Source: Bacteroidota bacterium (GTDB lineage: Bacteria; Bacteroidota; Bacteroidia; Cytophagales; Cyclobacteriaceae). Taken from it: a DNA stretch of 64,000 nucleotides. The first letter of the stretch is position 1. Every line of letters begins with the position of its first letter. This document shows, piece after piece, positions 1,527-6,179 of this stretch. A model generated the notes under the pieces. It was not told where the DNA came from. It did no database searches and was given only the letters and a program-made list of their open reading frames with translations. The stretch is taken from assembly GCA_022567155.1 (NCBI GenBank), contig JADFHN010000006.1:1-64000 (forward strand), written 5' to 3'. The translations under genes and the position numbers were made by a program.

Positions 1527-1929
1527 ACGGTTTTTAATTCTATAAACCAGAACCAACCTCGCACGGCTGCACGGGGTTGAGTGATACGATTTCGGTTGCT
1601 TACAACTACCTCCATTCAGGAGAGGTAAAGTCAAGAACGGAAATCAATGTGATGGGAAATAGAACGGCAATACCTGCTTGTCATTAAAACCGGAGTTTTT
1701 TTCAAAATGGTCATTCATGGTTTTTCTCAAAAGTTCATTTATTGCATTTTGTTGTGAGTGTTAAAAAATATGGGCGACTTGTAAATATGCCCAAAATTGG
1801 CCAAATCCGTATTCTTATCCTGTCAGGAAACAAGTCAGGTAGTAGTAGTGTGGAGTTTAATGCCAAATTGGATTCGGAAAAGCCGCGCTAATCAAGTAAA
1901 TTACCAATCGGAATCGTAAGTGTTGATTG
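1527..1929. other. Intergenic region without a convincing gene
   Basis: About 400 bp. The plus strand has a stop-free stretch of roughly 48 codons (about 1540-1686, ending ...IPACH then TAA) with no start codon and no family I recognise. It may be a decayed gene remnant. No hairpin terminator or transposon end stands out. Confidence 0.4.
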
Positions 1930-3381
1930 ATGAAAATACCTTCCAAAATCACTGCAAAAAGGGAAAGTTTGAGTTTTGATCCAGACCACACCAAGGTGAT
2001 CACCCGTTTTTTTGAACCGGACCATCAGAGAAAAGAACACATAATCGAAAGGATACTAAAGTTAGATCAGAAGGAGACGATACGGATTCTGGATCAGACC
2101 ATCGCTAATTTCTCCAATCGACACGACGATATCAAGAGGATTTTTAAAACCAATTTTGACCGGTTGAATATTGAGAGGGACCTCTCACTGGAGAGCCGGC
2201 TATTGCTGGGCGCGTACTTTACCATGGAATATGCCATTGAAACCGCAGCGCTTTTAAATCCCTCTATTGTTCCCCATCCCGATCAAAACGAATTACAAAA
2301 GAACGAACAAAGAGTGATCCTTAGCTTTAGGGCGGTGGGTGAGGGCCATATGTCATCCATTGTATTTCGCGAGGGCGTCATTAATAAAAACGGACTTCTG
2401 GTCATTCAAAGCAACAACACCAATTTTGAGCTGGGAAAGATCAATGAAGACTTTTTATACGATAAAAAAGATTTTATCATCAAACTGGAAGAGATTAAAT
2501 CCTATAAATCAGTTAAAAGTATCCTTGACAATCTTTTAGATAAGTTTTCAAGAGCCGAATTGAAAGAAAGCATCCAAAGGTTTGTGAAGAAATATCAGGA
2601 TGAAATGCATTTTAATCAGCAGGCCATAGACACTTTATTGTGGTTATCCAAATCCAATTTTGAAATTGATTTTGATGAAGAGTTGGATATTTCGGGAAGG
2701 GTTATCTTTCCCCGTTCCAAAGGGGAGATCAGAGCTTTAGAGGATGCGAGATTTGTGCAATTCCAGGATAGCGATGGTACCATTAAATACTACGCTACCT
2801 ATACAGCTTACGATGGCAGAAATATTCTTCCCCAACTGATTGAAACCAAAAACTTTTATCGATTTAAGATCAAGACGATGCTGGGTAGTGGTTCGCAAAA
2901 TAAAGGGATGGCCCTGTTCCCTGAAAAAATCAAGGGGAAATACGTCTTGATCTCACGTAACGACAACGAGAATTTATTTTTAATGTATTCCGACCGGATT
3001 AATTATTGGGAAAAACCTGTATTGATCAGGAAACCTGCCTTTTATTGGGAGTATTATCAGATCGGGAATAATGGGTCGCCCATTAAGACTAAAAACGGTT
3101 GGCTTGTACTCACACATGGGGTGGGTCCGGTGAGAACTTATTGTATGGGTGCCATGCTTCTGGATCTGGAGAATCCGGGGAAAGTCATCAAAATCACCAG
3201 AGAACCCATTTTATTTCCTTTGGAAAACGAACGAGATGGTTACGTACCCAATGTGGTGTACTCCTGCGGCTCCATTGTACACAAGGATTATCTGATCATG
3301 CCCTATGCCATATCCGATACCCGTTCAGGGGTGGCAAGGTTTAACCTGAAGGAGCTACTCAAAAGTATGGACCCCTGTTAA
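1930..3381 (+). CDS. GH130-family glycosidase/phosphorylase
   Basis: A 483-residue protein whose C-terminal two thirds (about 215-480) is a five-bladed propeller of glycoside hydrolase family 130, the family of mannosyl phosphorylases and beta-1,2-mannosidases. Recognisable blocks include E-I-R-A-L-E-D-A-R-F (the catalytic-region ED-R pattern), YYATYTAYDGRN, the K-G-M-A-L-F-P stretch, GNNGSPIKTKNGWLVLTHGVG and a YSCGSI block near the end. A helical N-terminal domain of about 200 residues precedes it, as in the longer GH130 members. There is no signal peptide, so it is probably cytoplasmic. I prefer the ATG at 1930 over the TTG one codon earlier. No SusCD pair, transporter or other mannan gene lies nearby. 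Phosphorylase versus hydrolase cannot be settled here. Confidence 0.82.
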   Translation: MKIPSKITAKRESLSFDPDHTKVITRFFEPDHQRKEHIIERILKLDQKETIRILDQTIANFSNRHDDIKRIFKTNFDRLNIERDLSLESRLLLGAYFTMEYAIETAALLNPSIVPHPDQNELQKNEQRVILSFRAVGEGHMSSIVFREGVINKNGLLVIQSNNTNFELGKINEDFLYDKKDFIIKLEEIKSYKSVKSILDNLLDKFSRAELKESIQRFVKKYQDEMHFNQQAIDTLLWLSKSNFEIDFDEELDISGRVIFPRSKGEIRALEDARFVQFQDSDGTIKYYATYTAYDGRNILPQLIETKNFYRFKIKTMLGSGSQNKGMALFPEKIKGKYVLISRNDNENLFLMYSDRINYWEKPVLIRKPAFYWEYYQIGNNGSPIKTKNGWLVLTHGVGPVRTYCMGAMLLDLENPGKVIKITREPILFPLENERDGYVPNVVYSCGSIVHKDYLIMPYAISDTRSGVARFNLKELLKSMDPC

Positions 3382-3522
3382 AAATCATTATTGAGGATTC
3401 ACCGGAAGTTTAATATCCAGGTTTTTATACCTTTTCGATCATTTTATCAAAAGATCAACCTTAACTGAACTCCCCGGAGATCGTGAAACAATACTTTCCT
3501 GAGATACGATCTTGAAGTCTTT

Positions 3523-3693
3523 AATTAGAGTCTGTCTATTAACTTGCAATATAGAAAAATTGCCATGCCTGCCTGCTAGCATTCCATAAATCCCCTCTTG
3601 GGAGGCCTGTCTGCCGGTCAGGCAGGGGTAGGTTTATTAATAAATTTATTGAATTTTTCTTTGAATAAACGACTTTATTGACAGACTCTAATT
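3523..3693. repeat. MITE-like element with 14-bp terminal inverted repeats
   Basis: A perfect 14-bp inverted repeat, AATTAGAGTCTGTC at 3523-3536 and GACAGACTCTAATT at 3680-3693, bounds 171 bp with no coding capacity. Inside are a C-rich/G-rich palindromic patch (CCTGTCTGCCGGTCAGGCAG, about 3606-3625) and T-rich stretches. This structure fits a non-autonomous insertion element. The outer AATT on each side could be part of the inverted repeat or a short target duplication. The rest of the 670-bp gap (3382-4055) shows no gene; a short AGGAGG-preceded frame at 3763 encodes only eight codons. Confidence 0.6.
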
Positions 3694-4055
3694 AGTTCCT
3701 TTTGCTGATCAGCTGTCATCAGGGTGGATAAACCTGGCGCCAACCATTTCTTAGGAGGAAGTCATGAATCAAAACCGGACATTTAAATAGTTGTTTGGCA
3801 AAAACAGTCAACCTAAATTTAGGGATTGACAATCTTATCCACTAAATAAATGATGATACCTTATTTTTTAAAAAATGTGTAGCCGGTTGGTCATAACTGC
3901 CTTGTATGCTTTTAAAATAACCAATGATTTTTGTCATAAAGCCGGGTGCGCATTATCTTGTTGTTTTTTACCCCTTGTTCAACTAATTTTAGTCGCTTAA
4001 AACAGAAACCGGTTTGAAGAAAGTTTAGTATTGATAATTTAAATGAATTGCTCTT

Positions 4056-6179
4056 ATGAAGGTATTTGACAACAAACACATAAAAAACATTGTACTTGTC
4101 GGTAGTTCTAAATCTGGCAAAACAACACTTGCCGAAACCATGCTGTTCGAAGCAGGTTTGATAAACAGGCGGGGAACTGTGGAAAGCAAAAACACTATAT
4201 CAGACTTTCATGAAATTGAGCATGAACGTGGGAACTCTGTATTTGCCACCAGCATGCATACCGAATGGCGTGATTATAAGATCAATATCATTGATACACC
4301 CGGACTGGACGATTTTATCGGAGAAATTGTAAGCTCGCTTCGCATAGCCGATACCAGTGTAATGCTTATTAATTCACAACATGGTGTGGAAGTGGGTACG
4401 GAACTGATCTGGAAATACGTGGATAAATTTGACAAACCGGTAATATTTGCTATCAATCAGGTGGATCATCCAAAATCAAACTTCGATGAAGCGCTTGAAT
4501 CTGTAAAGTTGCGTTATGGTAGTGCCGTTACGCAGATGCAATACCCGGTAAATCAGGGTGATGCATTTGATTCCATTATCGACCTGTTGAAAATGGTTAT
4601 GTACAAATTCGCCTCTGATGGTGGGAAACCGGAAAAGTTGGCTATACCGGATGCAGAAAAAGAAAAAGCAGAAAGGCTTCACAATGAGCTGGTAGAGAAA
4701 GCTGCTGAAAATGACGAAGATCTGATGGAGCTTTTCTTTGAAAAAGGAACACTTAATGAGGATGAAATGCGTAAGGGACTAAAAATCGGCATGGTCAACC
4801 ATGAGGTATTTCCGGTATTTTGCCTTTCTGCAAAAAAAAATATGGGTAGCGGAAGAATGATGGGCTTCATTGACAATGTGGCCCCATCTGTATTTGAACT
4901 GAAACCTGAAACTTCGGAAAGTGGTGATCCTGTGCCTTACGACCCTTCCAAACCAACCGTGTTGTTTGTATTCAAGTCAATGATAGAACCTAAACTGGGT
5001 AAATTGTCTTTCTTTAAAGTGATTAGCGGTGAGATAAAAATCGGCATAGATCTCCAGAACAGCCAGACGGGCGCTACCGAAAGAATAAACCAGTTGTTTA
5101 TCATGGACGGAAAAACCAGGAATCCGGTTGATAAACTTGTTACGGGCGATATCGGCGCTACGTTAAAATTGAAAGATACTGATACGAATCATACGTTGTG
5201 CGATAAAAAGATAAATGTCACTATCAAACCGATAGAATTTCCGGAGCAACGCATACGTACGGCCATTGTAGCAAAAAACAAAAGCGATGATGAAAAGCTG
5301 GGAGAAGTGTTGAGTAAAATCCATCAGGTGGATCCGACTATCAAGATGGAATACTCCAGGGAACTTAAGCAAATGATACTTTCAGGACAGGGAGAGCTTC
5401 ATCTCGACATCGTTAAATGGGAACTTGAAAATATTTATAATCTCCATATAGATTTTATCAAGCCCAGAATATCGTACAGGGAAACCATTCAAAAAGCAGC
5501 CGATGCTTCGTACAAGCACAAAAAACAATCAGGAGGCGCCGGCCAGTTTGGCGAAGTATATTTACATATCGAACCGTATTATGAAGGAATGCCTGAACCG
5601 GAAGGATTCAATTTGCGTGGCAAGCAGGAAATTAATCTGGAGTGGGGAGGGAAGCTTGTATTTTATAATTGCATTGTAGGCGGGGTGATCGACCAACGGT
5701 TTATTCCTGCCATCCAAAAAGGAATTTTGCAGAAAATGGAGGAAGGCCCGATTACCGGATCGTATGTAAGGGATGTTCGGGTAATGGTGTATGACGGAAA
5801 GATGCACGCCGTTGATTCGAATGATATTTCGTTTCAGATTGCCGGAAAAATGGCATTCAGAGATGCCTTTAACTCGGCAAACCCAAAGCTGCTGGAGCCT
5901 ATATATGATACCGAAGTACTTGTTCCTGAAGAACTTATGGGTGATGTGATGACTGATCTTCAGTCACGCCGGGCAATGATCATGGGTATGGATTCACAGG
6001 GAAATTACCAGGTAATTAAAGCAAAGACCCCGCTTGCTGAGATGGACAAGTATTCCACCACGCTCAGGTCGCTTACGCAGGGCAGGGCAAGCTTTACTAG
6101 TAAATTTGCCGAATACGCCCCTGTACCAGCTGATATTCAGAAAAAGCTGATGGCAGTACATGCGGATGCAGAGGAATAA
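4056..6179 (+). CDS. fusA2: Elongation factor G paralogue (EF-G2 type) with altered GTPase motifs
   Basis: A 707-residue EF-G-family protein with all domains: G domain (about 1-290), domain II, domains III/IV (Q-G-E-L-H-L-D block near 445-452, then a GAGQFG block in domain IV) and a V domain at the end. The P-loop reads GSSKSGKTT (16-24). The switch-I block is ERGNSV instead of ERGITI, the switch-II block is DTPGLDDF instead of DTPGHVDF, so the catalytic His is Leu84, and the G4 motif is NQVD instead of NKxD. It is therefore a specialised paralogue, not the housekeeping EF-G. Bacteroides species have an EF-G2 reported to translocate without GTP hydrolysis, and this protein may be its counterpart, which is inference. 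It stands alone without rpsL/rpsG/tuf neighbours. Confidence 0.88.
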   Translation: MKVFDNKHIKNIVLVGSSKSGKTTLAETMLFEAGLINRRGTVESKNTISDFHEIEHERGNSVFATSMHTEWRDYKINIIDTPGLDDFIGEIVSSLRIADTSVMLINSQHGVEVGTELIWKYVDKFDKPVIFAINQVDHPKSNFDEALESVKLRYGSAVTQMQYPVNQGDAFDSIIDLLKMVMYKFASDGGKPEKLAIPDAEKEKAERLHNELVEKAAENDEDLMELFFEKGTLNEDEMRKGLKIGMVNHEVFPVFCLSAKKNMGSGRMMGFIDNVAPSVFELKPETSESGDPVPYDPSKPTVLFVFKSMIEPKLGKLSFFKVISGEIKIGIDLQNSQTGATERINQLFIMDGKTRNPVDKLVTGDIGATLKLKDTDTNHTLCDKKINVTIKPIEFPEQRIRTAIVAKNKSDDEKLGEVLSKIHQVDPTIKMEYSRELKQMILSGQGELHLDIVKWELENIYNLHIDFIKPRISYRETIQKAADASYKHKKQSGGAGQFGEVYLHIEPYYEGMPEPEGFNLRGKQEINLEWGGKLVFYNCIVGGVIDQRFIPAIQKGILQKMEEGPITGSYVRDVRVMVYDGKMHAVDSNDISFQIAGKMAFRDAFNSANPKLLEPIYDTEVLVPEELMGDVMTDLQSRRAMIMGMDSQGNYQVIKAKTPLAEMDKYSTTLRSLTQGRASFTSKFAEYAPVPADIQKKLMAVHADAEE

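Follow-up and report, generated by a model that had tools for sequence, protein, structure and literature searches.

A Bacteroidota EF-G2 with a P-loop lysine and altered GTPase motifs: a candidate slow translocase

A 26-residue region unique to EF-G2 is reportedly responsible for both the absent GTPase and release from the ribosome in the work of Han et al. 2023, whose title includes the words "lacking GTPase activity". Which translocation events need GTP hydrolysis is still debated, and a GTPase-less EF-G paralogue has been cited as evidence (PMC12775393). The EF-G2 of Bacteroides thetaiotaomicron (BT_2167, fusA2; 7uvp and 8dmf) is described in PMC10294740, which cites Han et al. 2023, as a factor that "enables GTP-independent translation". 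PMC6989115 reports that fusA2 mRNA rises 238-fold on carbon limitation but only 4.7-fold without BT4338, and that this Bacteroides gene is preceded by a Cur site. Its wider subfamily, EFG II, was delimited by Gly16, Leu25 and a Ser in switch I, together with a divergent G domain and a conserved domain IV (Margus et al. 2011, PMC3150367). In translational GTPases generally, K+ is held between an Asp at K-3 (three residues before the Walker lysine) and the carbonyl of a switch I Gly, and water is placed by a His at D+4 (PMC9599734).

Identity of the window protein and its domain IV

The window, a stretch of DNA of 64,000 nucleotides, carries a gene of this kind (Table 1). Its ATG start codon is well fixed because the stop-to-stop frame spans only 710 aa and opens three codons 5' of the ATG. 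The product contains the Pfam domains GTP_EFTU, EF-G_D2, EFG_III, EFG_IV and EFG_C, and its best NCBIfam model was NF058620, the elongation factor G2 family of Bacteroidota (score, 1072.5 bits; curated cut-off, 1000). The same genome holds 14 GTP_EFTU matches, including a canonical EF-G (L002) reading HIDAGKTT / ERGITI / DTPGHVDF / NKMD; with this five-domain protein beside L002, the gene is a true paralogue encoding a second EF-G, as an earlier sequence-only reading had proposed. The AlphaFold model (mean pLDDT, 85.8; pTM, 0.78; pLDDT below 50 for residues 41-46 and 49-51 at the start of switch I) found its best PDB fold match in 8dmf (TM, 0.87; 52% identity), which is titled "Cryo-EM structure of the ribosome-bound Bacteroides thetaiotaomicron EF-G2". 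By sequence, the best solved relative was the chain common to 7uvp and 8dmf (806 bits). The family score and the nearest fold bear out the clustering with EF-G2 that the sequence-only reading had implied. In the sequence file, the shared chain carries the molecule name "Tetracycline resistance protein TetQ", which is misleading against the title of 8dmf; assignment as a tetracycline-protection protein was rejected on that title and on the score of the Tet(Q) model (124.5 bits against a cut-off of 1425).

Table 1. Coordinates of the EF-G2 gene and of the motifs discussed, in window positions
Feature	Residues	Position	Strand	Basis	Remark
EF-G2 (fusA2-type) gene		4056..6179	+	ORF, NF058620, Pfam	product 707 aa, five-domain EF-G
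P-loop (G1) GSSKSGKTT	16-24	4101..4127	+	alignment
Lys19	19	4110-4112	+	alignment	at K-3, where EF-G has the K+-holding Asp
Switch I (G2) HERGNSVFA	56-64	4221..4247	+	alignment	Ser61 at Mg ligand position; Asn60 replaces Ile
G3/switch II DTPGLDDF	80-87	4293..4316	+	alignment	Leu84 replaces catalytic His
G4 NQVD	134-137	4455..4466	+	alignment	Gln135 replaces Lys
Domain IV loop 1 KKQSGGAGQFGEV	489-501	5520..5558	+	alignment	conserved
Domain IV segment with EF-G2-specific insertion	506-536	5571..5663	+		WGG at 530-532
Domain IV tip His584	584	5805..5807	+		93/93 in clade

The comparison set consisted of 80 named loci from genome contigs plus loci from other genomes of two phyla, Bacteroidota and the phylum of a Desulfobulbaceae-like MAG (G296). 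It was drawn by similarity from best matches, and its counts describe the set only. A match was present in 217 of 222 loci; 214 proteins longer than 600 aa were aligned (three that did not exceed this length, L005, L067 and L188, were excluded), giving 195 rows once identical ones had been dropped. The 93 rows of the window clade, assigned by a 99-row tree or by at least 61.5% identity, are distinct sequences with 56-100% identity to the window protein and no pair 99% identical, and a single branch of the FastTree of 195 rows, with a support of 100, separates all of them from the remainder. The "EF-G1 like" rows were first sorted by the His itself, and this grouping was then checked on the 195-row tree, in which the 15 His rows are likewise split off from all others by one branch (support, 100).

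With EFG II numbering taken as in 1wdt, Gly16, Leu25 and Ser61 (within a switch I that is not RGITI) were invariant in 37 rows. Judged by this signature and by its family model, the window protein is a genuine Bacteroidota-type EF-G2 of the EFG II subfamily, a kind already known, and it shares with the EFG II of Margus et al. (PMC3150367) the Gly16, Leu25 and switch I Ser as well as the divergent G domain and conserved domain IV. It departs from the Bacteroidetes switch I YGYSV given there for the 2011 sequences, reading RGNSV like most of its clade; other rows of the EF-G2 family also deviate from YGYSV. Relative to B. thetaiotaomicron EF-G2, the NCBI family, the fold, the missing His, NQxD, the switch I Ser and a domain IV insertion with LEWGGKL are held in common, whereas the Bacteroides protein has Gly in the P-loop where ours has Lys, DCPGS in place of DTPGL, EYGYS in place of ERGNS, and an insertion of 26 residues rather than 17, making ours 9 shorter.

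The gene is under strong purifying selection, which acts to preserve the protein and above all the end that faces the ribosome. In a comparison with the nearest relative (L009), dN/dS was 0.071 for the whole gene and fell to 0.023 for domain IV, the most constrained part (domain borders are approximate), compared with 0.078 for EF-G1 (L002 against L167); a pseudogene was rejected on the intact frame and these ratios. Gly493, Gly494 and Gln497 of domain IV loop 1 were found in 93/93 clade rows, and in the G' region Glu214 and Glu225 were found in 93/93 and 92/93, respectively. The view that the translocation domains are preserved is supported by the invariant residues and the low dN/dS of domain IV.

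The domain IV insertion was absent from the sequence-only reading. Situated between loop 1 and the following IVGG, it is a shorter form of the Bacteroides EF-G2 insertion with a common LEWGGKL core: there are 17 extra residues in the window protein and 26 in Bacteroides EF-G2 relative to a piece of E. coli EF-G, or 20 and 29 relative to T. thermophilus EF-G (manual count). On its length, we take it to be the published 26-residue EF-G2 region. Within the clade, the insertion measured 17 residues in 92/93 rows and 18 in 1/93, with the WGG pattern in 93/93. Counting only rows that fit (5/15 His, 2/57 other Bacteroidota EFG II and 4/30 other-phylum EFG II rows were left out), an insertion of 17-26 residues occurred in 44/55 of the remaining Bacteroidota EFG II rows, whereas 11/55 lacked it, as did 26/26 EFG II rows from the phylum of G296; the same loop varied from -4 to +10 in 10 His-bearing EF-Gs, none of which had the WGG pattern. 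Since the Bacteroidota EFG II rows without the insertion branch off first in the 99-row tree, the simplest view is that the insertion arose within Bacteroidota EFG II after the His had changed.

Altered GTPase motifs and the missing histidine

Alignment placed all three altered motifs named in the sequence-only reading where expected, namely DTPGLDDF without the His, ERGNSV (residues 57-62) and NQVD, and G5 reads SAK (residues 258-260). A fourth altered site, not previously pointed out, is the P-loop change from Asp to Lys19. The canonical set of K+-dependent translational GTPases, Asp at K-3 and His at D+4, is thus replaced by Lys19 and Leu84. The Ile before the switch I Thr is a hydrophobic-gate residue, and this position (T-1) was Asn in 83/93 clade rows. 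The D+4 residue of the clade was Leu in 47 rows, Phe in 38, Met in 3, Tyr in 2, Ser in 2 and Pro in 1, and never His; K-3 was Lys in 87, Arg in 2, Ser in 2, Asp in 1 and Asn in 1; and position 2 of G4 was Gln in 88/93. Recurrence across a supported clade of 93 sequences argues that these changes are not due to chance. Lys22, Thr23, Asp80, Gly83, Asn134 and Asp137 were kept in 93/93 rows, and the switch I Mg ligand was Ser in 91 and Thr in 2.

Outside the clade, the 15 His-bearing EF-Gs had Asp at K-3 in all 14 rows covering the site, the same 14 carrying RGITI (L171 is without that part). The 57 other Bacteroidota EFG II rows showed Tyr (39), Thr (6), Leu (5), Phe (4), Ala (2) or Ser (1) at D+4 and Gly (55), Asp (1) or Ser (1) at K-3. 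In the 30 EFG II rows from the phylum of G296 (L193-L222), the His position was acidic in 21 (Asp, DTPGD) and otherwise Tyr (8) or Phe (1); K-3 was Gly in 28 and Lys in two proteins, L211 and L215.

The sequence-only reading had gone from the missing His to a factor without normal GTP hydrolysis, a step that proved weak. His at D+4 was found in 0/180 EFG II rows of the comparison set, so its lack is a rule of EFG II and not a mark of the window gene; the His state changes once on the 195-row tree and likewise on the 99-row tree (both counts unrooted). Thermus thermophilus EF-G-2 (1wdt, 2dy1), an EFG II protein with a similar fold (TM, 0.84), also lacks the His, reading DAPGYGDF, and differs from ours in its Gly at K-3, its 30% identity and its reported GTPase activity (PMC3150367, PMC3832671), which these two sources variously present as intrinsic or ribosome-dependent. 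M. smegmatis EFG2 is reported in PMC3832671 to be without GTPase activity. In E. coli EF-G, the H91A mutant retains intrinsic GTPase activity; ribosome-bound, it hydrolyzes GTP 7-fold more slowly, and phosphate release is hit harder than hydrolysis (PMC4532990). In IF2, replacement of the His by Leu or Tyr gives a protein that binds GTP, is GTPase-dead and remains on the 70S ribosome, and the Gln mutant is GTPase-active yet also remains there (PMC7037019). Taken together, these cases indicate that an inactive enzyme cannot be predicted from the missing His and that the residue by itself is not decisive; switch I of the window protein, moreover, still offers Ser61 as a Mg ligand. A loss of GTPase activity in this protein is plausible mainly because it is related to B. 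thetaiotaomicron EF-G2 and has the domain IV insertion in common with it.

Distribution, neighbors and upstream region

Full-length EF-G2 (>900 bits) occurred in 15/37 genomes of the window's family, its own included, with one further partial copy, and in 0/22 genomes from other families of the same order; EF-G2 is an accessory gene in this family. Carriers available in culture include Chryseolinea serpens DSM 24574 (L035) and Flexithrix dorotheae DSM 6795 (L075). In the phylum sample, 15/296 genomes exceeded the NF058620 cut-off, and many more full-length matches lay below it. In the order of G296, 11/77 genomes (G296 and G297 included) had copies above 1190 bits. The copies in Desulfobulbales-like genomes (L074, L076-L079 and L082-L087), one of which passes NF058620 at 1009 bits, come from hosts labeled Desulfobulbaceae, Desulfurivibrio, Deltaproteobacteria or proteobacterium, which in our own reading are Desulfobulbales. 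Contamination was rejected as their source: flanking genes are common to several MAGs, G+C lies within 4 points of the flanks, and one copy (G458) sits at 2.39 Mb of its contig. The window clade, itself supported at 100, lies among Bacteroidota EFG II rows, which makes transfer into Desulfobulbales the simplest account; EF-G2 there was probably acquired across phyla from the Bacteroidota side. Nesting of these copies inside Cytophagales sequences was not established, since a tree holding the Bacteroidota part of the clade together was not rejected (p-AU, 0.56). PMC3150367 records no transfer between sub-subgroups, in contrast to the occurrence of this clade in Desulfobulbales-like genomes. Among the titles and abstract openings listed in literature searches, none concerned a P-loop lysine in EF-G2 or its spread to Desulfobulbales, which is a weak sign of absence.

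Upstream of the gene, a 484-aa ORF (1927-3381) matches Glyco_hydro_130 in its C-terminal half, and only a piece of it, 48% identical, lies beside EF-G2 in the nearest relative. As candidate operon partners, this GH130-like piece, an upstream SDR gene and a downstream hypothetical gene were set aside because, among the loci compared, they recur in the nearest relative only, a weak negative given that many loci are short. An ORF (134-391) that immediately precedes an SDR gene opens with an extended Ser-Phe repeat and probably reflects simple repetitive DNA. Between the GH130-like ORF and EF-G2 lies a MITE-like element (3522-3694) with 21-nt inverted repeats, 90% complementary and 131 nt apart; the stretch 3500-3720 has at least 39 matches in its own genome (itself included, many partial, with 40 of 62 candidates scored).

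No convincing Cur (BT4338)-like TATGTTnTAnAACATA site stood out in the 350 bp upstream of the window gene, unlike B. thetaiotaomicron fusA2. The best Cur-like site in this upstream region matched 11/14 positions, a score equaled in 8% of 50 shuffles. Among 90 clade upstream regions, L039 alone reached 12/14 matches (0/50 shuffles), and no shared upstream motif was found, common 10-mers occurring in at most 8/90. With no comparable Cur site standing out there for the window gene, starvation control of its EF-G2 is something we infer from kinship.

Possible roles of an EF-G2 with an altered catalytic set

With moderate confidence, we regard the window EF-G2 as a slow translocase of the starvation type, whose GTPase activity the ribosome would stimulate little or not at all. 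It would act as an accessory factor that binds GTP and moves tRNA-mRNA by means of its intact domain IV, allowing slow translation when energy is short with little or no GTP hydrolysis stimulated by the ribosome. The usual catalytic set is missing in its entirety (Asp to Lys19, Ile to Asn60 and His to Leu84), whereas the residues for nucleotide binding (Lys22, Thr23, Ser61, Asp80, Gly83, Asn134 and Asp137) are retained. Lys19 may occupy the place of K+ near the phosphates and so favor the GTP-bound state. The insertion in domain IV, for its part, may help the factor to leave the ribosome without hydrolysis. Three points count against the hydrolysis-poor part of this account: the activity of Thermus EF-G-2 without the His; the milder alteration of the window protein than of its Bacteroides counterpart (DTPG, ERGNS and SAK in G5), together with the shorter insertion; and the conserved Lys/Arg at K-3, which could instead support hydrolysis. 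The score of the Cur-like site, only 11/14, counts against its starvation-type part.

Lys19 could either replace K+ and support slow hydrolysis or merely neutralize charge and hold GTP. The former possibility leads to a different account, in which EF-G2 of this clade still hydrolyzes GTP as a slow, cation-independent translational GTPase, with Lys19 as a built-in finger replacing K+. Such a role is suggested by the basic residue at K-3 in 89/93 rows, or in 68/71 (66 Lys and 2 Arg) after clustering at 90% identity, by the retained Mg and phosphate ligands, and by the Thermus protein reported to be active without the His, but the four exceptions with Ser, Asp or Asn (L117, L118, L120 and L121, all one branch) and the Gly of the Bacteroides rows weaken it, as does the middling variability of the site, 43.8% of the 707 columns varying less. 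The tree shows three changes between basic and other residues at K-3, and it offers only 3 independent pairs for judging whether Lys19 co-varies with other sites. A precedent comes from GB1/RHD3 (atlastin-type) GTPases, whose Arg finger at K-3 serves its own P-loop upon dimerization (PMC9599734). This is a one-site parallel and not membership: their architecture is unrelated, they use Arg rather than Lys, and the finger works in a dimer, of which there is no sign here. B. thetaiotaomicron EF-G2, moreover, is reported to be without GTPase. We consider a lysine-finger GTPase unlikely. Equally doubtful is the broader proposal that the clade swapped the K+ cofactor and the His for a permanent lysine in the P-loop (Lys19, along with Asn60 and Leu84). 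The result would be a factor with an in-cis finger that either hydrolyzes GTP without needing a cation or stays locked in its GTP-bound state, and that passed between phyla with the domain IV insertion.

A protective or hibernation-like factor that occupies the ribosome, binding in the GTP form and leaving slowly, appears improbable. The existence of the ribosome-bound structure 8dmf and the behavior of the IF2 Leu and Tyr mutants on the 70S ribosome are consistent with such a role; the GTPase-active IF2 Gln mutant, however, stays there as well, which means that retention is not a consequence of failed hydrolysis (PMC7037019). Occupancy alone would not demand the invariant decoding-center loop and the tip His, and B. 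thetaiotaomicron EF-G2 is said to translate (PMC10294740). Still less probable is a mainly ribosome-recycling role, as reported for mitochondrial and Borrelia EF-G2: second EF-Gs with such a division of labor exist (PMC3832671) and EF-G1 of the same genome is available for translocation, but those EF-G2s belong to spdEFG subfamilies (PMC3832671) whereas ours fits EFG II (Gly16, Leu25 and Ser), constraint is strongest in domain IV, on which translocation depends, and the B. thetaiotaomicron protein is said to support translation (PMC10294740).

The window clade also shows that EF-G2 is not a gut-specific trait. It supplies naturally occurring forms that stand between the EF-G2 of Bacteroides and the EF-G-2 of Thermus, reportedly active: the His is missing in all, but the P-loop differs and the insertion is shorter. 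A comparison of the three could show whether GTPase loss is due to the His, to the cation site of the P-loop or to the insertion, and the lysine-bearing EF-G2 clade is a variant worth testing.
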